Source of the DNA: an uncultured Lachnospiraceae bacterium
Lineage (GTDB): Bacteria > Bacillota > Clostridia > Lachnospirales > Lachnospiraceae
Reading direction: 5' to 3'
DNA: 64,000 nucleotides
NCBI GenBank assembly: GCA_944381635.1
Contig: CALWLY010000006.1
Coordinates: 44,464-108,463 of the forward strand
Positions 18,683 to 29,349 of the stretch are shown here, piece after piece. A program made the position numbers and the translations under genes. Within the stretch, counting starts at the first letter, position 1. Every line of letters starts with the position of its first letter. The notes under the pieces are model-generated. The model had not been told where the DNA came from and made no database searches. It saw only the letters and a program-made list of their open reading frames with translations.

Positions 18683-19108
18683 TTATTTATCACACCCACA
18701 GTTTGAGGAGCAGTCGAATTCAGGGTTAAATGCATAGAAGTTTTTACTGTCCAATCTTTCCTGAACAATTCTCAAAGCTTCACCGAAACGCTGATAATGC
18801 ACAATCTCACGGGCCCTCAGAAAGCGGATGGGCCCCGCTACTTCAGGGTCTTTTATGACACGTAAAATATTATCGTAGGTGGTACGGGCTTTCTGTTCTG
18901 CTGCCATATCTTCCGAAAGATCTGTAATAATGTCACCCTTGGATTGAAACTGACAGCTGTTAAACGGGATTCCTCCTGCTGCCTGAGGCCAAAGAGCCAA
19001 GGTGTGATCCACATAATAAGGGGCAAACCCGGAATTTTCAATTTCTTCCATAGAAAGATTTTTGGTCAGCTGGTATACAATGGTTCCGATCATTTCAAAG
19101 TGTGCCAA
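18683..19108 (-). CDS. cotJC: CotJC manganese-catalase-family spore coat protein, C-terminal segment of split gene
   Basis: 141 codons follow the left boundary repeat. The sequence resumes the Mn-catalase frame at LAHFEMIGTIVYQLTK and continues with ALWPQAAGGIPFNSC, DLSEDMAAEQKARTTYDNIL and FLRAREIVHYQRFGEAL, which carries the metal-binding Glu and His of the four-helix bundle. It ends in a Cys-rich CSSNCGCDK. A TAA lies just upstream in the element, and no ribosome site precedes the TTG at 19108, so on its own it is not a gene. Joined at the repeat to 28717-28911 it gives a continuous 206-residue CotJC. Confidence 0.93.
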   Translation of the reverse strand: MAHFEMIGTIVYQLTKNLSMEEIENSGFAPYYVDHTLALWPQAAGGIPFNSCQFQSKGDIITDLSEDMAAEQKARTTYDNILRVIKDPEVAGPIRFLRAREIVHYQRFGEALRIVQERLDSKNFYAFNPEFDCSSNCGCDK

Positions 19109-19122
19109 TTCTTCCGTTCCAA
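19109..19122. repeat. Left attachment-site core (attL/attR core)
   Basis: TTCTTCCGTTCCAA, identical to 28717-28730. To its left is cotJC (GTGTGCCAA); to its right element DNA starts GAGGTTAGAAGTTAT. AGAAGTTAT at 19129-19137 is the inverted partner of ATAACTTCT at 28692-28700. Confidence 0.9.
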
Positions 19123-19154
19123 GAGGTTAGAAGTTATTTTTGTAACAGTTCAGC

Positions 19155-19180
19155 CAGGGCGGCTTTTTATAACCGCCCTG
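19155..19180. terminator. Inverted repeat after the holin gene
   Basis: CAGGGCGG and CCGCCCTG form an 8-bp stem around a loop containing TTTTTATAA. It lies just downstream of the holin stop codon on the minus strand but lacks a T run, so its use as a terminator is uncertain. Confidence 0.5.
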
Positions 19181-19195
19181 TAATCAAAAATTACA

Positions 19196-19408
19196 CTATT
19201 CTGTCTTTTTCGGACACTCAGGTAATCCCGCAACACTTGTCAGCAAGGACAGGATACCGGACAGCGCCGCTGCACTGCCTACCATAACCCAATTTACATC
19301 CCCAATCACGGCTGCTGTGCCGATGGTTGCCACGGCTGTCTGTGCCACTGTTTTAACAGCTCTCACGCCTGCTGCTTTTATCCACTCTTTCCAATCTCTG
19401 TTTTTCAT
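19196..19408 (-). CDS. Phage holin, r1t type
   Basis: 70 residues from the ATG at 19408 (AAAGGATG about 11 bp upstream); a longer frame to 19546 runs into repeat DNA. The sequence TVAQTAVATIGTAAVIGDVN then WVMVGSAAALSGILSLLTSV is typical of the r1t-like holin family: two short membrane helices that let endolysin cross the membrane. No endolysin gene is found next to it, so it is a leftover of the lysis module. Confidence 0.82.
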   Translation of the reverse strand: MKNRDWKEWIKAAGVRAVKTVAQTAVATIGTAAVIGDVNWVMVGSAAALSGILSLLTSVAGLPECPKKTE

Positions 19409-19482
19409 TCTGTTATACATCCTTTCTTTTATTTTTATATTATGATTCGTGCCCCGACTGATTGATTTGCTTCTTCGATATC

Positions 19483-19572
19483 TCCGTGTAGTTTCCTGAT
19501 TTCGGGCATAAAAATACCACCGGTCATTTCTGGCTGGTGGTATCACTTTGTCATATTTTCATATTATGTTCC
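19483..19572 (-). repeat. Element-internal repeat A with terminator hairpin
   Basis: ATACCACC (19514-19521) and GGTGGTAT (19536-19543) form an 8-bp stem; on the minus strand it is followed by TTTTTATGCCCGAA, as in a terminator. The unit GTGTAGTTTCCTG...CGGGCATAAAAATACCACC plus GGTCATTTCTGGCTGGTGG recurs at 19982-20039 and 22602-22690. Confidence 0.8.
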
Positions 19573-19712
19573 TTCGCATATCGCTGTTCTTCCATGAAAG
19601 CCTCGTATTCTGCCTTAACTCTCTCTGGCGCATCCTCACGTAAGCCCGTTAAAGTCCCTTCCTCATCTGTTGTGATGTACTTCCAAAATTCAGCATCTTT
19701 AAATTCTGTCAA
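19551..19712 (-). CDS. Small phage-type protein (53 aa, TTG start)
   Basis: A TTG at 19712 follows AAGGAGAAATTGAG. The product begins MTEFKDAEFWKYITTDEEGT and ends FMEEQRYAKEHNMKI; it is acidic and helical. The start codon overlaps the preceding small gene's TGA, as in coupled phage genes. A terminator hairpin follows at once. The last codons (EHNMKI-stop) recur next to repeat C near 22690, so this gene was partly duplicated. Function not recognised. Confidence 0.55.
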   Translation of the reverse strand: MTEFKDAEFWKYITTDEEGTLTGLREDAPERVKAEYEAFMEEQRYAKEHNMKI

Positions 19713-19846
19713 CTCAATTTCTCCTTCAAGCTTTTGATAATTTGTCTTGTTAACAATTCAGCTCCCCTATTTTGATAATAATCCGTAACTGTTTCCTCCA
19801 ACATTTCCGCATAATCTTTTGTGGCATAATGAAAAATATATCCCAT
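19709..19846 (-). CDS. Small phage-type protein or fragment (45 aa)
   Basis: The frame reads MGYIFHYATKDYAEMLEETV then TDYYQNRGAELLTRQIIKSL and ends KEKLS. It looks like a real phage-derived helical protein, but the ATG at 19846 has no ribosome site and the frame stays open upstream for only a few codons. It may be the tail of a longer gene. Just upstream, about 19864-19950, another short fragment ends KKHIEVLHP, also without a start. Both look like debris. Confidence 0.4.
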   Translation of the reverse strand: MGYIFHYATKDYAEMLEETVTDYYQNRGAELLTRQIIKSLKEKLS

Positions 19847-19981
19847 GAGTTCATGCCGTGATTTTATGGATGCAATACTTCAATATGCTTTTTTACTATC
19901 TTTCTGTCTTCTTTCGGTTTTTGGGGTATCTCCCCATACAGTTTTACATATGTCTCACAAAATAGTTATTTTTCCGGTGGC

Positions 19982-20039
19982 TCCGTGTAGTTTCCTGCCT
20001 TCGGGTATAAAAATACCACCGGTCATTTCTGACTGGTGA
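19982..20039 (-). repeat. Element-internal repeat B
   Basis: Matches repeat A from CCGTGTAGTTTCCTG through ATACCACCGGTCATTTCTG, but the 3' arm is reduced to ACTGGTGA, so the hairpin is weakened. It lies at the end of the YjcQ remnant. Confidence 0.7.
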
Positions 20040-20364
20040 CTATAATCCCGGAATTGTATCTTTTATCCCTTTCGCAAGGTTTGCTGCTTTTCTCATTAAC
20101 GTATTTTCCTCCAAATATTCCAGACCTTTTAAAGTAATCTCAGGTCTTGCCAAAACGACTCTTGGGTACCTGTAATCTAAAGCATTCCATATCTGTCCTC
20201 CCGCAATATATCCCTCATTCAGCAGCATAGCCATGATACGGCTCCATTTAAGTACAGACAAGTCCAAATCTTTCCGGAGACAAAACCTCTTTATCGATCT
20301 CTTCACAGTCTATGGATTTCTGCAGAATACGCAGTATTTTGTAGAATAAATAAAAATCATCCAT
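20040..20364 (-). pseudogene. YjcQ-family phage protein, frameshifted
   Basis: A good start exists at 20364 (GGAGGCACAT-ATG) reading MDDFYLFYKILRILQKSIDC then EEIDKEVLSPERF. In that frame a stop follows soon after. A second frame continues the family pattern with DLSVLKWSRIMAMLLNEGYI and the typical end ITLKGLEYLEENTLMRKAAN...IKDTIPGL. The two frames differ by one base near 20280-20300, so one indel has broken the gene. YjcQ proteins are winged-helix-like phage proteins of unknown role. Confidence 0.75.
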
Positions 20365-20390
20365 ATGTGCCTCCTCTGGTAACCACACAC

Positions 20391-20479
20391 CTAAAAAATA
20401 AAAGACTATCTGGCAGGCGTTAATACCTCTTTTGACCCAGTAGATGTGTGATTACAACGAATTTTATCACGCCAGATAG
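20391..20479 (-). terminator. Structured terminator after the 57-aa gene
   Basis: CTATCTGGC (20406-20414) pairs with GCCAGATAG (20471-20479) around a 56-nt loop that holds smaller pairings. On the minus strand the stem is followed by TCTTTTATTTTTTAGG. Confidence 0.7.
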
Positions 20480-20498
20480 ATTTCATTTTTATGATATC

Positions 20499-20672
20499 TT
20501 ACTTATCCTTTTTGAATTTTTTTATCATTCTAAGCAAATCTGCTCTGTATTTTTCCTTTTCTTCTTCTGTTAGCTCGGTCTCTCCTACAACTTCAAATTT
20601 AGGAATATCCGCCTTAATCATTCTTTCACGTTCTTCATCTGTCAACCCTTTGTAAATATCCTCATATGCCAC
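20499..20672 (-). CDS. Small acidic/basic helical protein next to ADP-ribosyltransferase remnant (57 aa)
   Basis: GGAGGTATAGCT precedes a GTG at 20672. The product begins MAYEDIYKGLTDEERERMIK and ends LLRMIKKFKKDK: a charged, helical protein without membrane segments. It begins 2 bp after the stop of the toxin-like gene and its ribosome site is inside that gene, so the two were coupled. That position would suit an immunity protein or an ordinary phage protein; the sequence does not decide. Confidence 0.6.
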   Translation of the reverse strand: MAYEDIYKGLTDEERERMIKADIPKFEVVGETELTEEEKEKYRADLLRMIKKFKKDK

Positions 20673-20674
20673 AG

Positions 20675-21303
20675 CTATACCTCCTCAATCAAAATGTGCC
20701 ATTTTCCACCTTGGAATACTTTATCAGCTACTAAAAACTCTGTATTTCTTTCATACAGCACCTCTGCCTCATCTAGACCAACTGAGCTTATATCTTGTCC
20801 ATTTTTAGCATTTTATATATATTTTTTTACTCCAGCCTCCTCATCATAATCCGCGTTTTTTGAGATACTCCAATACTGTCTGATTTGAATATTTTTGCCC
20901 GGAATAAATGCCTTAACAAAATCAGCTGTTCTTTCATCACAACCTGGCCAATCTGAAAAATTGACTGTCCGTATTAAATCTCCCTCATACTTTGGCATCT
21001 TATCCGGAGCTGAATCCATTTTCTTTATAAACTCCTGCTGTGCTGACGTGAGTTCTGATACATCCTTTATGTTTCTTAATGCCTCATTGATTGTGTATGA
21101 TTCAAAGCTCTTATACTAAAGTAAAATACCCAGATCCTCCTGCGATAATTCCATTATACCAGAGTCAAATCCATTTACAACAGCATTCCACTCGCCAACC
21201 TTCTTTTCGTATCTTCCCTTATTCTCCTTATCCAGAGAATACTTTACCAGCCTCCCATATTTTTCTACCTGTCTGACTGCATACTGCTGTCTGGCTTCTT
21301 ACT
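20675..21303 (-). pseudogene. Phage minor head protein with ADP-ribosyltransferase-like C-terminus, two in-frame stops
   Basis: One frame reads VEKYGRLVKYSLDKENKGRY, a pattern seen in MuF-type phage minor head proteins, then a TAG (21116-21118), then SFESYTINEALRNIKDVSEL, IQIRQYWSISKNADYDEEAG, a TAA (20813-20815), and finally ISSVGLDEAEVLYERNTEF. The last piece looks like the ExE turn of ADP-ribosyltransferase toxins. The frame is the same throughout, so two nonsense mutations rather than frameshifts have killed it. The N-terminal part is missing at a junction with an ECF-module repeat near 21303. Confidence 0.72.
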
Positions 21304-21330
21304 CATTCGCCTGTCCGATTACTTGACCTT

Positions 21331-21483
21331 CCGTCTGACCGCCCCATACAGCGAGGAACGCCGGAGAGCCGCCAGTGAAACGACGAAAGCTGCCACAAAC
21401 AATCTCGCACGAAGTATGGTATAATTTTTTGAAAAAGTTTTGGATTTGATGTAGTATTCACCGCGAAAACCGTAGTATATAGG
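21331..21483 (+). promoter_or_regulatory. Duplicated ECF-module upstream region, plus-strand copy
   Basis: Inverted relative to 23871-24030, about three-quarters identical by eye. It ends with the paired motif GTAGTAT-tcaccgcgaaaacc-GTAGTAT (21451-21457 and 21472-21478). The same two motifs at the same spacing lie before the complete sigma gene. They probably form the sigma factor's own promoter. Confidence 0.7.
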
Positions 21484-21521
21484 TGAAGCAATATTTGATT
21501 GAAAAAGAGGTATTTGTATGA
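21483..21521 (+). pseudogene. Last 12 codons of a deleted ECF sigma gene
   Basis: GTG AAG CAA TAT ... GTA TGA encodes KQYLIEKEVFV, matching the KQYLIEREVFI end of the intact sigma factor at 23285. The promoter is joined straight to this tail; TGAA is present at both ends of the missing part, suggesting deletion by microhomology. The ATGA overlap with the anti-sigma start is kept. Confidence 0.75.
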
Positions 21522-22540
21522 ATGCGAAAAAGTTTTCCGACGCTATGAACGAACTTGATACGAAATATATTGATGAAGCTCTTAACTACAAAAAGAAAGT
21601 GAAAAAGCCCGTTTGGGTAAAATGGGGAACTATTGCGGCTTGCTTGCTCCTTGTTTTTACCATGTCGGTTCCAGCATTTGCGGCCGCAGATTTTGCCCCC
21701 GCTTATAATCTGCTTTACACGCTATCTCCAACAATCGCTCAAAAGTTAAAGCCTGTTAGAATGTCTTGCGAGGATAATGGGATTAAATTTGAGGTCGTTT
21801 CAGCTTATGTTGAGGGGAACGAAGCAAAAATTTTTGTTTCCGTACGAGACCTGGAAGAAAATAGAATTGACGAAACAACAGATTTGTTTGACAGCTATAG
21901 TATCAATACACCTTTTGATTGCAGCAGTTCGTGCAAAAATATAAGCTACGATACCGAAACGAAAACCGCCACTTTCCTGATTTCTATATCGCAATGGAAT
22001 GAACAAGATATTATAGGCGAAAAAATTACCTTTTGTGTCCGAGAAATATTGAGCAACAAACAGAAATATGATGCAGCATTACCTGATTTGGATATAAGCA
22101 AAACCAACACTACCCCTGAAACAATTACTCCAACCCATATTTTTGGCGGTGGTGGAATAAACTACAGTGCAATCGAGGATAACTTTCATGCACTGAAAGC
22201 GACGGAGATCCTTTACTCTCCTATTAATGGGGTGGATATTACAGCAATGGGATATGTAGACGGAAAACTGCATATACAAGTCAAATACGAGAATGTTTTA
22301 GAAACTGATAATCATGGCTATATCTATTTTAAAAATAACAAAGGTGAAAAAATCCAGTGTGTTGCAAGTGTTAGTTTTTCTATTGATAATGAGCATCAAG
22401 ATCGATATGAGGAGTATGTTTTCGATTTATCAGATGTTGATTTAACTGAATATGAGGTATATGGGTATTTTGTCACCAGTGATACTCATATTACAGGAAA
22501 TTGGGACGTTACTTTTCCGCTGGAAAGCGTAAATCAGTAA
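21518..22540 (+). CDS. Anti-sigma-like membrane protein without a partner sigma (340 aa)
   Basis: The N-terminus MNAKKFSDAMNELDTKYIDE matches the anti-sigma protein at 22716 (MNVKKFSDAMSELDTKYVDE), so both bind related sigma factors. One membrane helix follows at about 34-55 (WGTIAACLLLVFTMSVPAFA). The large extracellular part (60-340) resembles DUF4179/DUF5643-type ectodomains, with beta-rich repeats such as VEGNEAKIFVSVRDLEEN. The ribosome site AAAGAGGTATTTGT precedes the ATG. Its own sigma gene has been deleted, leaving it directly behind the duplicated promoter. Confidence 0.82.
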   Translation: MNAKKFSDAMNELDTKYIDEALNYKKKVKKPVWVKWGTIAACLLLVFTMSVPAFAAADFAPAYNLLYTLSPTIAQKLKPVRMSCEDNGIKFEVVSAYVEGNEAKIFVSVRDLEENRIDETTDLFDSYSINTPFDCSSSCKNISYDTETKTATFLISISQWNEQDIIGEKITFCVREILSNKQKYDAALPDLDISKTNTTPETITPTHIFGGGGINYSAIEDNFHALKATEILYSPINGVDITAMGYVDGKLHIQVKYENVLETDNHGYIYFKNNKGEKIQCVASVSFSIDNEHQDRYEEYVFDLSDVDLTEYEVYGYFVTSDTHITGNWDVTFPLESVNQ

Positions 22541-22601
22541 GTCAACCACACCGGCAATGCCGATAGCGCCAGCTGCACTGGCTGCCATTCCTTGATGTGC
22601 T

Positions 22602-22690
22602 TCTGTGTAGATTACTGCCTTTGGGCACAAGAATACCACCGGTCATTTCTGGCTGGTGGTATCTCTTTGTCAAATTTTCATATTGTGTTC
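22602..22690 (-). repeat. Element-internal repeat C
   Basis: Third copy, with ATACCACC and GGTGGTAT arms intact. It extends into a degenerate copy of the end of the 53-residue gene (minus strand GAA CAC AAT ATG AAA ATT TGA). It lies between the convergent ends of the two anti-sigma genes. Confidence 0.78.
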
Positions 22691-22715
22691 TCCCGTGCTG
22701 CAGCAACAGGATAAT

Positions 22716-23288
22716 TTACGCAAATTGCCGAATTATACTTTCCACATCTGCACTACCACTATTGGTATATACATAGCTGAAAGTAAATCCGTTTTGTTCC
22801 CAAATGGCATAGGTAGTATCTGTATATTTATAGTATTCGACTTTTACTCCTTCGATGTCTTCGCTTCCCTCCAATGTACCGCCGTAAATACCGCTAATAT
22901 CTCCACTTCCATATTGCATACGAAATTCTGAGCCGTCTGCATAATTTATCTGTCCCATTGTGGGATAACTGTTTTCAACAAAAACAGAATAAGACTCTAC
23001 TTCCTTATCTAAAACCGGAACATCAAAATCAAGATAATTTTCCATTTCCTCAACAGATGAAACCGTAATAATTGGATTTGGGATTTGAACAATGTCAGGA
23101 TTCGGAGCAATATTTTCGCTGTTTTGTGTGAACATTACTCCACCCACAGCCAACAGACATACACAGGCCGCCACAGCTCCCCACTTAATCCAAACGGACT
23201 GTTTGGCTTTCTTTTTGTAGCTGAGAGTTTCATCAACGTATTTTGTATCAAGCTCGCTCATAGCGTCGGAAAATTTCTTTACGTTCAT
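22716..23288 (-). CDS. Anti-sigma factor (membrane protein)
   Basis: 190 residues. Cytoplasmic N-terminus NVKKFSDAMSELDTKYVDET, one helix at about 36-54 (WGAVAACVCLLAVGGVMFT), then an extracellular domain of about 135 residues with TVSSVEEMENYLDFDVPVLD and a DUF4367-like end (GFTFSYVYTNSGSADVESII). It overlaps the sigma gene by 4 bp. It should hold the sigma factor inactive until an external signal arrives. Confidence 0.82.
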   Translation of the reverse strand: MNVKKFSDAMSELDTKYVDETLSYKKKAKQSVWIKWGAVAACVCLLAVGGVMFTQNSENIAPNPDIVQIPNPIITVSSVEEMENYLDFDVPVLDKEVESYSVFVENSYPTMGQINYADGSEFRMQYGSGDISGIYGGTLEGSEDIEGVKVEYYKYTDTTYAIWEQNGFTFSYVYTNSGSADVESIIRQFA

Positions 23289-23845
23289 ATAAAAACCTCT
23301 CTTTCAATTAAGTATTGTTTCATCTTTTCGCGGATGCGAGTCAGCCGGACAGAGATGTTTTTCTCCGAAATCCCTACAAACTCAGCTATGTCCCTGTAGC
23401 TGTCTGAAAACCAATAGCGCCTCATGAAGATAACGCGGTTTTCAAGGGTCAGCGTGTCCAAAAATTCCTCAATGATACGGGCTAACTCCTTGGCTTCGAT
23501 TTCATCTTCAACGGTTTTTTGGTCTGCGATACAGGCCTCAATCTCTTCTAAGGCAATTGTATAGTTACTGCTTCGTTTAGCCGCTTCCTTTCTCCAATAG
23601 ATTTTCAGTGAAATGTTCCGAACGATTTTCACGATATAGGACAACAGAGGATTGGGCCGTACCGGGGGAATGGCGTTCCATGCGCCTAAGTAAGCGTCAT
23701 TGACACATTCCTCCGCGTCTTGTCTGCTTCCCACAATGTGATACGAAAGGCTATGGCATATTTTCCCATATTTATTATCCAGCTCCCGTATGCCTTGCTC
23801 TGATCGTTCAAAGAACATTTCTATAATTTTTTCATCGTCTTTCAC
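23285..23845 (-). CDS. ECF sigma factor
   Basis: 186 residues from a GTG at 23845 preceded by GGAGGCGGTGAG. Region 2 shows DAEECVNDAYLGAWNAIPPV and LLSYIVKIVRNISLKIYW; region 4 shows LENRVIFMRRYWFSDSYRDI then GISEKNISVRLTRIREKMK. It is followed by its anti-sigma gene with ATGA overlap. The upstream DNA (23871-24030) carries two GTAGTAT motifs and is duplicated in front of the orphan anti-sigma gene, so this factor may drive both. Confidence 0.92.
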   Translation of the reverse strand: MKDDEKIIEMFFERSEQGIRELDNKYGKICHSLSYHIVGSRQDAEECVNDAYLGAWNAIPPVRPNPLLSYIVKIVRNISLKIYWRKEAAKRSSNYTIALEEIEACIADQKTVEDEIEAKELARIIEEFLDTLTLENRVIFMRRYWFSDSYRDIAEFVGISEKNISVRLTRIREKMKQYLIEREVFI

Positions 23846-23870
23846 CTCACCGCCTCCTTTCTGGCTTCAC

Positions 23871-24030
23871 TTATATACTACGGTTTTAGCGGTAAATACT
23901 ACATCAAATCTAAAATTTTATCAAAAAAAAATATACCACACTTCACATAAGATTGCTCGCGGCAGCTTTCGCCGCTTCACTGGCAGCTCGGCGTCATTCC
24001 TCACTGTACAGGGTGATCAGAAGTCTGCTC
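23871..24030 (-). promoter_or_regulatory. Duplicated ECF-module upstream region, minus-strand copy
   Basis: Carries GTAGTAT-ttaccgctaaaacc-GTAGTAT immediately before the sigma gene and extends through the stretch with a GCTTTCGCCGCTTCACTGGC core. The matching inverted copy is at 21331-21483. Confidence 0.7.
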
Positions 24031-24055
24031 GTCCAATGGTCTAGCCTTCTTTCGT

Positions 24056-24373
24056 TTATTCCAACAAATCCAACAGTATGTCCATCATCCTTACAAAATA
24101 CTTTCTTTTCTGCTCCGGCAGTCTGTTAAGTCGGCTCAATGGGCATTCCAGGCACTCGTCCTTTCCTAAAAGCAGATAATTGGGATTCAATCTCATCTTT
24201 TCATCGGCCAGCTTTATTTTTTCAAGAGAAAGTCTCCGATTTCCTCTCTCCACCTCTCCATAAAAGTTAGCAGAAATCTCCAGAATTTCCGCTGCCTCCT
24301 TCTGCGTAAGTCCCTTTTCTCTTCTTCCTTTTCTCAGGCGTTTCCCGATTCCGGTCAATAATGCATTTTCCAT
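24056..24373 (-). CDS. XRE-family transcriptional regulator
   Basis: 105 residues, with TAAGGAGGATTTATCC before the ATG. The helix-turn-helix is seen at residues 8-62 (GIGKRLRKGRREKGLTQKEA, ILEISANFYGEVERGNRRLS). The C-terminal tail contains CLECPLSRLN, a possible metal or redox site, and a final amphipathic helix. It probably represses element genes, including from the structured leader in front of it, but its target is not known. Confidence 0.88.
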   Translation of the reverse strand: MENALLTGIGKRLRKGRREKGLTQKEAAEILEISANFYGEVERGNRRLSLEKIKLADEKMRLNPNYLLLGKDECLECPLSRLNRLPEQKRKYFVRMMDILLDLLE

Positions 24374-24425
24374 GGATAAATCCTCCTTAAAGTTATTTAC
24401 GCCATCATTTTATCGGGATTCAAAA

Positions 24426-24573
24426 GTTTTCACACACTTTTCACGTTCCAGTCAGATTTCCTTCACATTCCTGATGTATTCTAAAATCATCAAAAGGGTA
24501 ACACCTTTTTACATATATTTTCTTTTTCATTACAGCCGGAAGAATAAGATTTCTCCCGGCTCTCCCTTCGTCC
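24426..24573 (-). ncRNA. Conserved structured leader, copy 2
   Basis: Second copy of the 18202-18346 block, upstream of the XRE gene. The hairpin is AGCCGGgAGAA...TTCTcCCGGCT on one strand; relative to copy 1, AGGA/TCCT has become AGAA/TTCT, a paired change. The 13-codon frame is kept (24490 to 24452) with one Thr to Lys change. Confidence 0.6.
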
Positions 24574-24617
24574 AGGCATAAATTCCTGCATGAGCTTGTC
24601 TCTCCTTTCCTGCCGTC

Positions 24618-24776
24618 TCAGACAGTTTCATCTTTTGCCTTTTCTGCCAGTCCTCTAATAATAATTTGCGATACCCGGTCAATAATTGCCTGCTTTTCTT
24701 CCTCTGTTTTTACCACACAATCATCATGAATATAAATCTTACAGGGTCCATGGTTCAATTCTTTCACAATCGCCAT
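24618..24776 (-). CDS. Small mobile-element protein (52 aa)
   Basis: AAAGGGATTTGCTT precedes the ATG at 24776. The product begins MAIVKELNHGPCKIYIHDDC and continues VVKTEEEKQAIIDRVSQIII; it ends ETV. Two cysteines (12 and 20) frame a short beta hairpin, then a helix. Similar 'I-x-I-H-D-D...IIxRVSxII' proteins seem to recur in Firmicute prophages and elements, from memory. It is a candidate for a small accessory factor of the element, but nothing shows it. Confidence 0.55.
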   Translation of the reverse strand: MAIVKELNHGPCKIYIHDDCVVKTEEEKQAIIDRVSQIIIRGLAEKAKDETV

Positions 24777-25026
24777 AAGCAAATCCCTTTTTGCTTAAAG
24801 TATGTATATCTGTTTGTCTAAGTTCCTGTATTTTTAAACTTATTCTCCTCTATCTGCCTTCCTCTGTCCAATATTCAAATGGGCCATTACTTTTATTTCA
24901 GTGTTGATTTGTTTCTGCTTTCTGTTAGAATCAAATTATGGAACATATGGATTAGCTTAAAAAGCTTCTCGATTGTGATGAAACCGCCAAAGGCGATTTC
25001 ACTTATAAATACAGGAGGATTCTAAA

Positions 25027-25398
25027 ATGATTGATTTCAAAAATGGTGCACTTATCAAACTAAAAAAAGCAGCCGTAAACACTTCGGATGTCGAAAAGCT
25101 TCTTATTCAGAGCGAACAGATTGTCGGATGTTATTCAGGTATCCGTGACTACGTTGTGTTCACAACTAAGAGGGTGATTGCTGTAAATGTTCAGGGTATG
25201 ACCGGAAAGAAAAAGGACTTCACTTCTCTTCCTTATTCCAAAGTTCAGGCTTTTTCTGTTGAGACATCTGGCGTTTTGGATATGGATTCCGAACTTGAGT
25301 TGTATTTTTCAGGATTAGGGAAAATTACCTTTGAATTTTCTGGCCAAAGCGATATTGTAAGAATCGGCCAGATGATTGGGGAATTTATTTTGAAATAA
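25027..25398 (+). CDS. PH-domain protein (bacterial pleckstrin-homology type)
   Basis: 123 residues with AGGAGGATTCTAAA before the ATG. The stretch GCYSGIRDYVVFTTKRVIAV then KKKDFTSLPYSKVQAFSVET and LDMDSELELYFSGLGKITFE fits the bPH fold found in YyaB/DUF1696-type proteins, where the strand order and the 'FTxKRxI' turn are typical. The role is unknown. A small hairpin (TGAAACCGCC/GGCGATTTCA) lies 25 bp upstream. Its codon usage is more AT-rich than flanking chromosomal genes, like the rest of the element. Confidence 0.82.
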   Translation: MIDFKNGALIKLKKAAVNTSDVEKLLIQSEQIVGCYSGIRDYVVFTTKRVIAVNVQGMTGKKKDFTSLPYSKVQAFSVETSGVLDMDSELELYFSGLGKITFEFSGQSDIVRIGQMIGEFILK

Positions 25399-25427
25399 TA
25401 AAAAATACAGTATAGGAGGCGTTAAAA

Positions 25428-25514
25428 ATGCTATGTTTATGTCATAGAATCATCGACTTAAGCAATCAACTCTGTACAAAATCTAATGATAAGGCGATAT
25501 TTGTGCAGAGTTAA
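25428..25514 (+). CDS. Leader peptide (28 aa) upstream of the MFS efflux gene
   Basis: GGAGG sits 8 bp before the ATG, one of the best ribosome sites in the element. The peptide is MLCLCHRIIDLSNQLCTKSN followed by DKAIFVQS. Its 3' half overlaps the 5' arms of two mutually exclusive hairpins. This is the layout of drug-inducible attenuation leaders for resistance genes: ribosome stalling would change which hairpin forms. Confidence 0.72.
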   Translation: MLCLCHRIIDLSNQLCTKSNDKAIFVQS

Positions 25515-25541
25515 TTTTCGCCGAACATTGGATTTTGTACA
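25470..25541 (+). promoter_or_regulatory. Attenuator with alternative hairpins before the MFS gene
   Basis: Hairpin 1 pairs CTCTGTACAAA (25470-25480) with TTTGTGCAGAG (25500-25510), 11 pairs with one G-U. Hairpin 2 pairs TGTACAAAATCTAATG (25473-25488) with CATTGGATTTTGTACA (25526-25541), 16 pairs with one G-U. They share the same 5' strand, so only one can form. The leader peptide ends inside hairpin 1. Confidence 0.72.
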
Positions 25542-25582
25542 ATTTATTCTAGTTAATAAAAGATTAGATTGGAGAAAATTCA

Positions 25583-26860
25583 ATGGAAAATTTTAAAAAA
25601 TACATAGTTTTATGGGTAAGTCAAAGTGTTTCACAACTGGGAAGTTCCATGACTGCGTTTGCCCTCATTTTATGGACATACGAACAGACACGCTCGGCTC
25701 TTTCGGTTTCAATCATGTCATTTTGTAACTATGTGCCATATATTTTGATAAGTATATTTGTCGGTGCATTTGTCGATAACCACAGTAAAAAAGCTGTTAT
25801 GCTTGTTTCAGACAGTATTGCCGCACTGGCTTCACTATTTATTCTGGTATTTTCAATGACAGGAATTCTTTCAGCATGGCACATTTATATCATGAATGCT
25901 ATTGTAGGAATAACTACGGCATTTCAGCAACCGGCGTCTTCTGTTGCAATAGCCAAAATTGTACCGAAGGATAAACTGACCAATGTAAGCGGAATGAACT
26001 CTTTTTCCAGCAATTTGATCGTTGTATTCAGCCCGATGTTGGCTTCTGTGCTTTTTTCTGTAGGAGGTCTGCCGCTAATTTTGCTGTTTGATCTGTTGAG
26101 TTTTGCTGCAGCCTTTTGTGTTCTTCTATTTTTAATCCATATACCGGAACAGATCGTAAGGGAAAAATTCACGTCTCCATTTGCGGGGATCATGGTTGGA
26201 TTTCGTTTCTTAAAAAATGAAAAAGGAATTTTGCAAATCATGATTACAATGGCAGTGCTAAATTTCTTTTCTAGGCTAACCTATGAAAATATATTGTCCC
26301 CTATGATTTTGGAAAGAAGTTCCGCAAACAATGTTGCGTTAGGAATTGTAAATGCCTGCATGGGTATCGGTGGAATCATTGGTGGTCTGCTTGTTTCTAT
26401 AAAAAAGGAAAGCAAGAAAAAAGCAACTATGATTTATATTTCTGCTGCATTATCCTTTTTGTTTGGCGATTTAATAATGGCAGTTGGCAGGAATGTATTT
26501 TGTTGGTCATTTGCTGCCCTTGCTGCAAGCTTACCGATTCCGTTTATTTTGGCAGGACAAAATTTAATACTCTACAAAAAAATACCTGAAAATATTCAAG
26601 GAAGAGTATTTGCTGTAAGAAATGCCATTCAATACAGCACGATTCCTTTCGGTATTCTTTTGGGAGGATACTTAGCTGATTATGTATTTGAGCCTTTTAT
26701 GCAATCGAATACAGGCATTGCGATTTCTTTAGAAAAAATTGTAGGAAGTGGTGCAGGCAGTGGCATGGCTGTTATGTTTTTATGTACGGGGGTTTGCGGC
26801 TTCTCCATGAGTATTTTTTCTCTTCTTTGCAAAGAAATTCAGAAACTAAATGACTGTTGA
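25583..26860 (+). CDS. MFS efflux transporter (macrolide/drug efflux-like)
   Basis: 425 residues with twelve predicted helices. The opening YIVLWVSQSVSQLGSSMTAF and the loop GAFVDNHSKKAVMLVSD (motif A region) resemble the Mef-type, DHA3 group of MFS exporters. The central loop is short and basic (KKESKKKA). The ribosome site TTGGAGAAAATTCA precedes the ATG. The leader peptide and attenuator upstream fit antibiotic-inducible expression. The substrate cannot be read from the sequence; a macrolide or another ribosome-binding drug is a guess from the leader. Confidence 0.88.
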   Translation: MENFKKYIVLWVSQSVSQLGSSMTAFALILWTYEQTRSALSVSIMSFCNYVPYILISIFVGAFVDNHSKKAVMLVSDSIAALASLFILVFSMTGILSAWHIYIMNAIVGITTAFQQPASSVAIAKIVPKDKLTNVSGMNSFSSNLIVVFSPMLASVLFSVGGLPLILLFDLLSFAAAFCVLLFLIHIPEQIVREKFTSPFAGIMVGFRFLKNEKGILQIMITMAVLNFFSRLTYENILSPMILERSSANNVALGIVNACMGIGGIIGGLLVSIKKESKKKATMIYISAALSFLFGDLIMAVGRNVFCWSFAALAASLPIPFILAGQNLILYKKIPENIQGRVFAVRNAIQYSTIPFGILLGGYLADYVFEPFMQSNTGIAISLEKIVGSGAGSGMAVMFLCTGVCGFSMSIFSLLCKEIQKLNDC

Positions 26861-26893
26861 TAGTTAGGGTTGTCCTTTGTACTCCTCTGTAAG

Positions 26894-26940
26894 AAAAGGC
26901 GGTATGCTCCCCTCTGTGGGGACTGCATATCGCCTTTTTT
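26894..26940 (+). terminator. Terminator of the MFS gene
   Basis: AAAAGGCGGTATGC pairs imperfectly with GCATATCGCCTTTTTT, with an inner TCCCC/GGGGA stem. It ends in six T. It lies 34 bp after the stop. Confidence 0.93.
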
Positions 26941-26948
26941 AATCAGAA

Positions 26949-26974
26949 ACGGAATACCTGAACTACATATTGTA
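26949..26974 (+). promoter_or_regulatory. Possible sigma-K-like promoter of the recombinase gene
   Basis: CATATTGTA (26966-26974) matches the sigma-K -10 form CATAnnnTA, with AC 15 bp upstream (26949-26950); the usual spacing is 16-17, so the match is weak. It would fit mother-cell expression of the recombinase. Confidence 0.3.
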
Positions 26975-27005
26975 ATATATATGAAACACAAAGGAGGTCA
27001 TCGGT

Positions 27006-28577
27006 ATGTTAAATCCAAGCGGCAAATATCTTATCTACCTGCGTAAATCCCGCGCGGACCAGGAAGCAGAAAGCCATAGCGAAGGGGAAACTCTGGCCCG
27101 TCACGAGCATATTCTTCTCAATCTGGCAAAGCATCTTTCTATTTCCATCAGAGCCTGTTACCGGGAAATCGTATCCGGGGAAAGCATTGCAGCCCGTCCC
27201 CAGATGACAAGGCTGCTGTCAGAAGTGGAACAGGGCTGCTGGGACGGTGTCCTTGTGATGGAAGTGGAACGTCTGGCAAGGGGCGATACCATCGATCAGG
27301 GCATCGTGGCGCAGGCCTTTAAATATTCCGACACGCTGATTATCACTCCTTCCAAAATCTACGACCCGCAGAATGAATTTGACGAGGAGTATTTTGAATT
27401 CGGACTTTTCATGAGCCGCCGTGAATATAAAACCATAAACCGCAGGCTGCAGCGGGGCAGGCTGCAATCTGCCAGAGAGGGGAAATATACCGGCAATGTG
27501 GCACCCTATGGCTATGAACGGATCAAACTGGTCGGAGAAAAAGGATTTTCCCTTACTCCTCTTCCCTCCCAGGAAACCGTTGTCAGACAGATCTATACCT
27601 GGTTTGTTTACGGGGATGCCGACGGAAGCCCTATGGGAATCACCAAAATACGCCACAAGCTCAACAGTCTGCAGATTCCTTCTCCGAAGGGTTCTGTGTG
27701 GACAGACTCTACGGTTCACGGAATCCTTTTAAATCCGGTCTACAACGGCAAGATTCGCTGCAAATACCGTCCTGTAGTAAAGGGTACCTCTTCCGGAGCT
27801 GTAAAGACAAGCCGACCCCGTTCGGAAAATCAGACACTTTATCCCGGCCTGCACCCTGCCCTCATACCAGATAATCTGTTTCAGGCTGCATCTGCAAGGT
27901 TTCTCCAGAAAGAAAAACGTCCGGTCCCTGCCAGGTATACGGTCTGCAATCCCCTATCCGGTCTTGTCATCTGTGAACGCTGCCATGGGAAAATGGAGCG
28001 CCGCCCCATACAAAAAGGAAATGATATGCTGATCTGCACCACCTCCGGATGCCCCACGGTAGGCTCCGCCCTTTATCTGGTGGAAGAACAGGTTTTGGAA
28101 GCCCTTCATGAAATTGTAGAAGCACAGCTGAACCTTGCTTCTGCCTCTCCCCACCTTCCTGAGGACAGCCTGTCGGTGAAAGAAGCTCTCCTTTCAGAGG
28201 CGAAAAGCAGATTGACTGAATTGGTTATCAAGCAAAACCGCCTCTATGACCTTCTGGAGGATGGCATTTATACTCCGGAAATCTTTATGGAACGTTCCGG
28301 GAAGCTTTCCGAAGAGAAGAAAAAGGCAGAGACCGCCTGTCAGGAAGCAGAACTTCTGGTAACCATGGAAAAACAACAGCTGGAAAAACGGGATTCCTTT
28401 CTTCCCAAGACCCAGCACCTTCTGCAAAATTACAGCCAGCTTGACAATCAGGAAAAAAACCGGATTCTCAAGGAACTGTTGGACCACATCTCCTACCGCA
28501 AAGACACCCGCAATAAAAAAGGAGCCGGCCACATCGCCAGCTTCTCTCTACATCTCTATCCAAAGGTGCTATCCTGA
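27006..28577 (+). CDS. Large serine recombinase
   Basis: 523 residues with AAAGGAGGTCATCGGT before the ATG. The resolvase domain starts YLIYLRKSRADQE, with Ser15 as the likely nucleophile, and has GVLVMEVERLARGDTIDQG. The recombinase domain (about 160-290) includes APYGYERIKL and WTDSTVHGILLNPVYNGK. A zinc ribbon follows (CERCHGKMERR, CTTSGCP), then a coiled coil at about 390-470. Length and order match phage integrases and the SpoIVCA/SprA recombinases that excise elements from sporulation genes. It reads towards the right boundary repeat and ends 139 bp from it. Confidence 0.95.
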   Translation: MLNPSGKYLIYLRKSRADQEAESHSEGETLARHEHILLNLAKHLSISIRACYREIVSGESIAARPQMTRLLSEVEQGCWDGVLVMEVERLARGDTIDQGIVAQAFKYSDTLIITPSKIYDPQNEFDEEYFEFGLFMSRREYKTINRRLQRGRLQSAREGKYTGNVAPYGYERIKLVGEKGFSLTPLPSQETVVRQIYTWFVYGDADGSPMGITKIRHKLNSLQIPSPKGSVWTDSTVHGILLNPVYNGKIRCKYRPVVKGTSSGAVKTSRPRSENQTLYPGLHPALIPDNLFQAASARFLQKEKRPVPARYTVCNPLSGLVICERCHGKMERRPIQKGNDMLICTTSGCPTVGSALYLVEEQVLEALHEIVEAQLNLASASPHLPEDSLSVKEALLSEAKSRLTELVIKQNRLYDLLEDGIYTPEIFMERSGKLSEEKKKAETACQEAELLVTMEKQQLEKRDSFLPKTQHLLQNYSQLDNQEKNRILKELLDHISYRKDTRNKKGAGHIASFSLHLYPKVLS

Positions 28578-28614
28578 ACACAAAGGCAAAAAAACTCATT
28601 AGATTCTTTTAGAA

Positions 28615-28911
28615 CTATCCGGATACTTCTGGTTTTCTCTGGAATCTTCTGGGTTTCTCTGAATGCTTCCGCCTTCTTTTGCGTCCTATCCATAACTTCT
28701 GACTCCTTGGTACCGGTTCTTCCGTTCCAATGTCAGTCAACAGCCCTGCCACCTCCCGATAGGGCATTGTGTAGCGCTGTGAAAAATATCTCATCGAAGC
28801 TCCCAGTTCGCCGTCAGGGCCACCATACTGGGAAATAATAATCTGAGCCAGTTTCGCATTAGGCTCTTTTATATTTACCGGAAACTGCAGTCTTTTTTCA
28901 TAATTCCACAT
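28615..28911 (-). CDS. cotJC: CotJC, N-terminal segment of split gene, running into the element
   Basis: Begins MWNYEKRLQFPVNIKEPNAK and continues IISQYGGPDGELGASMRYFS, YTMPYREVAGLLTDIGTEE: the conserved N-terminus of Mn-catalase-type CotJC, with the first metal-binding Glu residues. Codon 65 (GAA, 28719-28717) is the last cotJC codon; after it the frame enters element DNA and adds 33 unrelated residues (PVPRSQKLWIGRKRRR...). The product made from the interrupted gene would be a 98-residue fragment. cotJB ends 4 bp before the start. Confidence 0.93.
   Translation of the reverse strand: MWNYEKRLQFPVNIKEPNAKLAQIIISQYGGPDGELGASMRYFSQRYTMPYREVAGLLTDIGTEEPVPRSQKLWIGRKRRRKHSEKPRRFQRKPEVSG
28717..28730. 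repeat. Right attachment-site core
   Basis: TTCTTCCGTTCCAA, identical to 19109-19122. On its right is cotJC coding DNA; on its left the element ends ...ATAACTTCTGACTCC then TTGGTACCGG. In cotJC sense it encodes (I)-G-T-E-E. Confidence 0.9.
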
Positions 28912-28915
28912 AACC

Positions 28916-29188
28916 TTAATCCCTCACTTCCCATGGCAGTTTTTCCATACCCCAGCGCCATTCTTTCTGATAGGGCTCTGAATCTGCAAGCGTCAGCGGT
29001 CCGAATTTTGCCGCATACTCTGCTTTCATTTTGTTGTTCAACCGGTTGTAATGGTTAAAATATTCCAGTGCGTTTCTGTCATCGGGATGCGTATCCAGAT
29101 ATTCTGTCATTTCCACCACGACAAAATCTACCATTCCGATGTTCTCCAGCATTCGTTCTCTCTCACTTTTCCGGCATCCTCTCAACAC
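28916..29188 (-). CDS. cotJB: Spore coat protein CotJB
   Basis: 90 residues. The core EYLDTHPDDRNALEYFNHYN then MKAEYAAKFGPLTLADSEPY and WRWGMEKLPWE is typical of CotJB. The likely start is GTG 29188, 5 bp after GGGAGG, overlapping the end of cotJA (stop 29184-29182), so the two are coupled. It is the middle gene of cotJABC, whose products form part of the coat or an inner assembly in the mother cell. Confidence 0.9.
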   Translation of the reverse strand: MLRGCRKSERERMLENIGMVDFVVVEMTEYLDTHPDDRNALEYFNHYNRLNNKMKAEYAAKFGPLTLADSEPYQKEWRWGMEKLPWEVRD

Positions 29189-29349
29189 TCACGCCTCCCT
29201 TTAAAAGGTTTATCAAGCTCCGGGAAAATAGTTCCCCTTCTGTATGCCTCTTCCAGACTTTCATAGATATTGGTCATATGCTGCCACGGAACATATGCCA
29301 TAGCCAACGGATACTGTTCGCGCATCTGTTCAGATCTGTTTTCCTGCAT
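29182..29349 (-). CDS. cotJA: Spore coat-associated protein CotJA
   Basis: 55 residues, too short to stand out. AAAGGAGTTTTTAGT precedes the ATG at 29349. The sequence QYPLAMAYVPWQHMTNIYES then LEEAYRRGTIFPELDKPF matches the CotJA signature AMAYVPWQ...GTIFPELDKPF. It is the first gene of the cotJ operon, whose third gene is interrupted. Confidence 0.92.
   Translation of the reverse strand: MQENRSEQMREQYPLAMAYVPWQHMTNIYESLEEAYRRGTIFPELDKPFKGRREC

Follow-up and report, generated by a model that had tools for sequence, protein, structure and literature searches.

In this study we analysed a 64,000-nucleotide stretch (hereafter the window) of the genome of an uncultured Lachnospiraceae bacterium, and found the spore-coat gene cotJC broken between codons 65 and 66 by an intervening element of 9,608 bp that encodes its own large serine recombinase (LSR). 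This is the only cotJC found in the genome, and it is likely that the element excises itself in the mother cell during sporulation, so that the frame is restored in a cell without progeny. On the minus strand, cotJA and cotJB are followed by the first 65 codons of cotJC, with the other 141 codons lying 9.6 kb further on. The two parts tile the Pfam Mn_catalase profile (PF05067) exactly, covering positions 1–66 and then 67–198. The inserted DNA (19109–28716, one repeat copy counted) is bounded by a direct repeat, TTCTTCCGTTCCAA, whose exact copies in the window are confined to 19109–19122 and 28717–28730, with approximately 0.0005 exact copies expected by chance under uniform bases; when up to two mismatches are allowed there are 4 matches against 1.0 expected. 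The common end sequence, read along the gene, is TTGGAACGGAAGAA, with no other exact copy in the window. Joining the halves at the repeat gives a frame that reads DIGTEELAHFEMIG with no stop, and the rebuilt CotJC reaches 414 bits on a profile built from 22 intact relatives, which themselves score 386–417 in a leave-one-out comparison.

The initial annotation, made from the letters of the window, had placed the halves of cotJC at 28911–28717 and 19108–18683, with an identical 14-mer at both ends, a join without loss or gain of residues, and intact cotJA and cotJB genes adjacent. Sequence and coordinates bear this out: the repeat is in register, no stop is created, and the neighbouring genes match PF11007 and PF12652. 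The same annotation had named a second intact cotJC as grounds for abandoning its interpretation; our whole-genome search of the window genome (49 contigs, 98% complete) returned the two halves only. The genome also contains spoIVA, so the host looks like a spore former. Where the initial annotation went astray was in taking exact restoration of the frame as its main argument for developmentally timed reconstruction. Since no base is gained or lost in conservative site-specific recombination, such integration always leaves a restorable gene, and exact restoration is therefore weak evidence: it tells how the element entered, not that the cell uses the element's exit. What is needed is evidence that split genes stay in use. 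The developmental interpretation itself is probably right, as the best explanation of the recurrence of the split, the selection on the rebuilt gene and the promoter-enriched candidate factor described below.

An intact CotJC was used to query 180 genomes from the family to which the window belongs (completeness 90% or more, one genome per species, mostly drafts), yielding a match in 115. Open-frame length was unreliable as a screen for splits, G349 and G255 having long frames though split, and was replaced by the full-length CotJC query with a full match list. Fifty of the 115 genomes were picked by eye as possibly broken and every match was listed for them, while the remaining 65 each gave a full-length match and were not re-listed; the number of split genomes is therefore a lower bound. 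Complementary cotJC pieces were present in at least 43 of the 115 genomes, 33 of them without an intact copy. By insertion site (A to D, described below) the 43 divide into 14 at A, 14 at B, 3 at C, 4 at D and 8 with two or more sites; the pieces of 19 genomes are collinear on a single contig and strand. The three pieces in G397 are spread over 105 kb, and in the multi-site genome G097 the start of cotJC is cut by a contig end. Seven of the 50 were excluded from the split count: G036 (frameshift-like), G094 (contig ends), G122 (diverged end), and G131, G207, G056 and G047 (second piece not located or doubtful). Among the pieces that were counted, some have stops inside the matched stretch or frame (e.g. 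G147, G135) and may be decayed. At 17 one-sided loci, CotJC similarity starts at the GGPDGE motif of site A in 14, at site B in two and at codon 4 in one (L109).

As controls, spoIVA and recA were searched under the same sampling scheme (n = 140 genomes). spoIVA was present in 98 genomes and in two separated pieces only in G104, where the break falls on two contig ends; recA was present in all 140 and never in separated pieces. Even with G104 counted, the split rate of cotJC exceeds that of the controls (Fisher p <= 1e-12). Not counted as interrupted were the spoIVA rows of G096 (adjacent pieces, frameshift-like), G120 and G041 (both partial, no second piece) and the recA rows of G157 (adjacent, overlapping) and G096 (contig start).

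We rebuilt 29 junctions at 27 loci, all of which yield family sequence with no stop. They fall at four sites: A, at codon ~30 (8 junctions), B, at ~62–67 (18), D, at ~134 (1), and C, at ~173 (2). The sites lie inside the motifs QYGG-PDGE (A) and DIGTEELAH (B) and in EDMAAEQ (D) and FQRFGEA (C), which begin at residues 30, 62, 131 and 165 of the reference CotJC, respectively. CotJC is homologous to solved manganese catalases (1jku, 1o9i), and we take all four motifs to be ones that bear metal ligands in these enzymes. Conserved motifs are probably favoured because the most conserved DNA of a gene offers the best attachment sites. Since BLAST segments extended into the element, protein score was used to position the crossover, and the repeat was then measured at that point; independent support for a junction is therefore the in-register repeat, which reaches at least 8 bp in 17 of the 29 junctions (chance 0.0005 each) and at least 6 bp in 20 (chance 0.0065 each). 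One spurious segment (L053), locus L044 and loci with one half only were left out of the junction count.

Except for one decayed element of 1.6 kb, the 29 elements span 2.2–39 kb, and some in the wider survey are larger. A serine-recombinase match is present in every one of the 29: 26 as open reading frames (ORFs) of at least 400 aa, together with those of L119, L124 (partial) and L118 (truncated). In a tree of 61 recombinases, built with a warning of long branches, those at sites A (14 rows, six from one genus), C (2) and D (2) each form one clade with support of 100/99 or better. Site B (26 rows) shows seven label changes, at least four of them forced by well-supported branches, and includes a six-member clade apart from that of the window. 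As judged from this tree, the cotJC sites are hit by several serine-recombinase lineages. Among nine named loci with related recombinases, the 5' part of cotJC lies beside or near the recombinase in L004, L005 and L009, with the 3' part also present in L005 and L009; the 3' part lies beside it in L002 and L003, and the other four have neither part. L005 belongs to a cultured strain, Alkaliphilus transvaalensis, and holds a 7.2-kb element with a 13-bp repeat. Within the window's family, a recombinase match at E 1e-60 or better was found in 28 of 397 genomes, and a cotJC piece in the examined flanks of 14 among the 30 recombinase loci listed.

The clearest view of how long a split has persisted comes from the genus of G105, in which cotJC is split in seven of eight species, in some into three pieces, and intact in G401. 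Five of these species have in common a site-A element of 7.26–7.33 kb with genes in the same order, same-strand matches over 84–91% at 74–81% DNA identity, and an open recombinase frame in all five; we infer that it was inherited, not acquired several times. cotJC rebuilt from four of the site-A species contains no stop, and the ratio of amino-acid-changing (dN) to synonymous (dS) divergence is 0.018–0.052 in the five of six pairs with estimable dS. Adding G105, itself split at site B, again gives no stop, with dN of 0.024–0.075 against dS of 0.58–0.77, and dN/dS of 0.012–0.052 in eight of ten pairs, the other two being saturated. Because a gene dead since the divergence of the element would look different, there must be some stage at which the split gene is expressed in one piece. 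By these sequence comparisons, the site-A split is apparently old and still selected to work. More widely, on the intact-only profile 19 of the family's 21 split genes fall inside the span of scores of the 22 intact ones, with J046 (368) and L141 (381) below it; the scores of L005 and L009, which belong to other families, are 253 and 297. The two window halves differ from G106 by only 0.033 and 0.087 amino-acid-changing differences per site, despite 0.91 and 0.75 per synonymous site.

Clustering of small ORFs identified one family of ~50–70 aa in 11 site-B elements whose recombinase is of the window's type, and a profile of the family brings the membership to 14. The window member, 24618–24776, has no Pfam or PHROG match; among its 103 large-database relatives the few names shown read 'hypothetical protein', and one bears the Pfam accession PF19791. 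The family was also found in five of 12 additional stretches, in which recombinases of this clade lie at other genes, indicating that it travels with the recombinase and not with cotJC. In C. difficile, mother-cell promoters have -10 boxes such as CATATTAT and -35 elements of ATA (sigma-E) or AC (sigma-K), classically 16–18 bp apart (PMC3789822). Prompted by the window copy, we searched for (ATA|AC)-N16-18-CATANNNT within 150 bp of the start. The pattern precedes seven of the 14 family members (six of 13 without the window copy) as opposed to two of 122 other small ORFs bearing a ribosome-binding site in the same elements (p 7.7e-7); none of 500 shuffles reached seven matches (mean 0.67), and five of the seven patterns lie at -39 to -44 from the called start. 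L003, L004 and L005 have a common variant with AATA replacing CATA, and five of eight other small ORFs chosen by position or kinship carry the pattern (L047, J194, L058, L138, L059); both of these observations are without a control set. The window motif, ACTTAGACAAACAGATATACATACTTT, runs from 24823 down to 24797 and alone proves little, because the bare pattern occurs seven times in the element. Taken with its family, 24618–24776 is the best candidate for the excision switch, a recombination directionality factor.

Three other candidates for control of excision were considered and rejected. The recombinase's own promoter does not serve as a general timing device: with slightly wider spacings allowed, the motif occurs in 11 of 47 cotJC-locus upstream regions, and elsewhere in one of six at SleL-type genes and one of 15 at others. 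Within the G105 genus, the strict motif lies upstream of the site-A recombinase in three of the five aligned species (G396, G399, G402) and in G398, and is off by one base in G403 and off in spacing in G400. Spo0A-like cargo was set aside as controller since hosts have other Spo0A_C genes, with two to six Spo0A_C matches per genome in the seven genomes checked; Spo0A_C proteins occur in three cotJC elements, L051 (G029), L108 site A (G252) and L118 (G349), one being a full-length Spo0A. The bPH_1 protein at 25027–25398 has no homologue among the ORFs of the 29 elements.

We postulate that the recombinase would join the two element ends (attL and attR) at the 14-bp repeat, with a small directionality factor, for which 24618–24776 is put forward, flipping the enzyme from integration to excision. 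The factor would be made from a sigma-E/K promoter, by analogy with CD1234 of the C. difficile skin element. The element itself would stay put in the germ line, for which reason a mother-cell gene would be a safe harbour for it.

A second gene is targeted as well. Recombinases of the same clade adjoin halves of a LysM-GH18 gene (Pfam was run on four) at L183, L187, L188, L085, L086, L088, L095, L090, L100 and L008. Both halves are on one contig and strand in G053, G270 and G249, the recombinase of G249 being short and containing a stop. From its architecture this gene is probably of the SleL/YaaH type, which we take to be a spore-cortex enzyme family. Extending the argument beyond the window, we think it probable that cotJC is spliced at the DNA level throughout a large spore-forming family: several unrelated lineages of serine recombinase, each with a sigma-E/K-driven directionality factor, would have come to occupy codons of the catalase active-site motifs, at four sites and leaving genes in three or more pieces, and each mother cell would have to excise one to three elements before CotJC could be made. 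Elements of ~2.2 kb, comprising the recombinase and one or two small genes, would come near a DNA-level counterpart of a self-splicing intron, and the same clade would hit other mother-cell genes such as those of SleL/YaaH type.

That cotJC merely offers good attachment sites, and that insertion kills a dispensable gene, is unlikely. Such plain disruption would suit the presence and absence of elements within a genus (G401 is intact among split congeners, and G089 is intact where G387 is split), which implies gain or loss, as well as the truncated recombinase of the G349 element and the report that B. subtilis mutants not incorporating the protein had no apparent defect (PMC12122855). It sits poorly with dN/dS of 0.018–0.052 in species that hold a common, diverged element, with profile scores inside the intact range for all but two of the 21 split genes, with 33 of 115 genomes having a split copy only, with interruption of the control genes in at most 1/98 (spoIVA) and 0/140 (recA), and with the promoter enrichment before one accessory family. 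We consider it about equally unlikely that the element instead acts as a population-level switch, leaving and re-entering in a fraction of vegetative cells in the manner of active lysogeny or of yin in yabG. yin was excised at all time points (PMC10747680), and four of the 29 cotJC elements are 35–39 kb long, pairs of these having many small ORFs in common, which suggests phages; the sigma-E/K-type promoters before the candidate directionality factor argue for mother-cell timing, and one element has been kept in five species of the G105 genus, so that loss is not frequent there. A split protein, its fragments translated separately and assembling without DNA excision, is hardly credible: the 3' part in the window can be read from a TTG, but by inspection no evident ribosome-binding site precedes it, the 5' pieces at site A are only ~30 codons long, some genes are in three pieces, and a recombinase match accompanies all 29 elements.

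Several observations weigh against self-excision in the mother cell as the explanation. Excision is here a prediction from sequence alone, and the directionality factor is a candidate only: seven of the 14 family members lack the strict motif, a second set gave the pattern in two of five against six of 128 background ORFs, with one of the two at -97, and the motif upstream of the recombinases is weakly enriched (11/47 against a shuffle mean of 5.0 and maximum of 12). The absence of stops at the junctions is partly by construction, because the crossover was chosen by protein score, and the repeat is 5 bp or shorter, hardly above chance, in nine of the 29 (J194, J226, J137, J163 site B, L042, L053, L108 site B, L119 and L124). 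In 24 of the 43 split genomes the pieces are not all on one contig and the join is inferred, in the multi-site genome G172 the middle of cotJC was not found, and ten of the 43 also hold an intact cotJC, where the split copy may be dispensable. The 1.6-kb site-B element of L118 (G349) has its recombinase cut at about residue 300 and is probably unable to leave, yet cotJC is still preserved. With regard to selection, dS is near saturation, making the dN/dS values rough, and the identity of the shared element tracks cotJC divergence only loosely, G399–G402 ranking as the closest pair by element and by amino-acid change but not by synonymous change. The window's own split is undatable because its genus has one genome in the sample, and the window element is partly decayed, a YjcQ-like gene being split over two frames.

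The features of the window element and its surroundings are collected in the table below. The recombinase has Resolvase and Recombinase domains with a zinc-ribbon match just under the Pfam cut-off, and the 3' end of its gene lies 139 bp from the junction repeat. Phage-like matches are limited to the holin, YjcQ, repressor-like and sigma-like ORFs, and no capsid, terminase or tail family was matched by the element ORFs scanned (12 against Pfam, 16 against PHROGs), the scan covering listed ORFs and leaving out small unlisted ones; on these scanned ORFs, the element is not a complete prophage. The YjcQ-family gene is probably broken, because it is matched in two overlapping frames. From its position next to the sigma factor gene, 22716–23288 may encode an anti-sigma factor.

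Table. Coordinates of the split cotJC gene, its neighbours and the features of the intervening element, as positions in the window.
Feature	Coordinates	Strand	Matches and remarks
cotJC 3' part, codons 66–206, begins LAHFEMIG	18683..19108	-	Mn_catalase profile positions 67–198
Intervening element, 9,608 bp, one repeat copy counted	19109..28716	.	
14-bp direct repeat, crossover core, cotJC 3' junction	19109..19122	.	in register with the other copy
r1t-type holin-like ORF	19196..19546	-	PF16945 5e-14; PHROG 443; homologues in two other cotJC elements
53-aa ORF, homologue in the G226 cotJC element	19551..19712	-	no Pfam or PHROG match
YjcQ-family protein in two overlapping frames (20040–20306, 20248–20388)	20040..20388	-	PF09639 4.4e-17; PHROG 3675 positions 34–109 and 1–37
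DUF4179-like protein, below Pfam cut-off, similar to 22716–23288	21518..22540	+	
Protein related to 21518–22540, 4-bp overlap with the sigma factor gene	22716..23288	-	no Pfam or PHROG match
ECF-type sigma-70 family protein	23285..23845	-	PF04542, PF08281; PHROG 1740
HTH_3 phage-repressor-like regulator	24056..24373	-	PF01381; PHROG 8
52-aa candidate recombination directionality factor	24618..24776	-	small-protein family travelling with the recombinase clade; no Pfam or PHROG match
Sigma-K-type promoter-like sequence AC-N17-CATACTTT(A)	24797..24823	-	ends 20 bp before the candidate's ATG
Bacterial PH-domain protein (bPH_1), cargo	25027..25398	+	PF08000 3.9e-37; PHROG 7115, function unknown
MFS transporter, cargo	25583..26860	+	PF05977; nearest NCBIfam efflux models far below cut-offs
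Large serine recombinase, 523 aa	27006..28577	+	PF00239, PF07508, PF13408 (last below cut-off); PHROG 95 integrase 1.6e-93
14-bp direct repeat, crossover core, cotJC 5' junction	28717..28730	.	in register with the other copy
cotJC 5' part, codons 1–65, ends ...DIGTEE	28717..28911	-	Mn_catalase profile positions 1–66
cotJB, intact	28916..29188	-	PF12652 2.9e-26
cotJA, intact	29182..29349	-	PF11007 4.7e-19

Some contents recur among cotJC elements or set single loci apart. The r1t-type holin-like ORF is found in three elements, those of the window (19196–19546), L107 and J137 (G137), and a role in mother-cell lysis is imaginable. The two site-C elements L138 and L141 each contain a gene resembling a Phd-type antitoxin. 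By inspection, the shared site-A element (L171–L175) carries a conserved polyamine-type ABC transporter operon, so that an excisable element apparently houses ordinary host functions. In L109 (G298) codon 4 of cotJC is directly preceded by a recombinase gene, and similarity to CotJC stops at residue 177; this is possibly a fifth insertion site, at the start codon. L044 (G059) has two near-alike cotJC 3' pieces 3.5 kb apart on one contig.

The window element has three features of a sporulation gene-intervening element, namely a position inside a sporulation gene, a frame-restoring direct repeat and its own recombinase, and the interrupted gene those of a CotJC/manganese catalase, with an Mn_catalase domain (PF05067) and CotJA and CotJB genes upstream. 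It resembles skin in sigK of B. subtilis and C. difficile in combining an LSR with an interrupted mother-cell gene (PMC5025042). The skin element of C. difficile has a constitutive recombinase and a small factor, CD1234, controlled by sigma-E and SpoIIID, an arrangement that our candidate factor matches (PMC5025042). Unlike skin, the target here is a structural coat gene and not a regulator, with four sites, several recombinase lineages and elements down to 2.2 kb. Similar to SPbeta in spsM, which excises during sporulation, a spore-envelope gene holds a site-specific element (PMC4191935); SPbeta is an active prophage, whereas the scanned ORFs of the window element give a holin-like match and no capsid or terminase family. 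The element gin in gerE of B. cereus is likewise non-phage, with a serine recombinase and a short core, and needs a separate factor, GirX; gin concerns one gene in some strains, while cotJC is hit repeatedly across a family (PMC5595907). vfbin in spoVFB and yin in yabG are the same kind of interruption in different genes, and yin shares with the window element a repeat of 14 bp and a sigma-K promoter predicted ahead of a putative directionality factor; yin has been reported from one strain only (PMC10747680). Compared by its published description, phage phi027 of C. difficile has an attachment site that borders cotG, a CotJC-like gene, and is reported as adjacent to cotG, not as a rebuilt split (PMC12122855, PMC11222575). 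No interruption of cotJC was found in the open-licence literature, subscription journals and preprints being outside this scope. Within it, the kind of element is known (skin, SPbeta, vfbin, gin, yin), but cotJC as a target, the recurrence of its interruption, genes in several parts and elements of very small size all appear to be new.

Programmed DNA excision in sporulation has so far been known from a handful of genes. In the family studied here, more than a third of the cotJC-bearing species examined have the gene in pieces, repeatedly and at the same motifs, and this recurrence makes the question of why elements live in mother-cell genes statistically testable. An element that leaves in the mother cell loses nothing, because that cell dies. 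Annotation pipelines may be calling many working cotJC genes of the family pseudogenes. The split genes also provide a ready-made set of recombinases and candidate directionality factors, together with their matched attachment sites, and those in three pieces allow one to ask whether the excisions are ordered.

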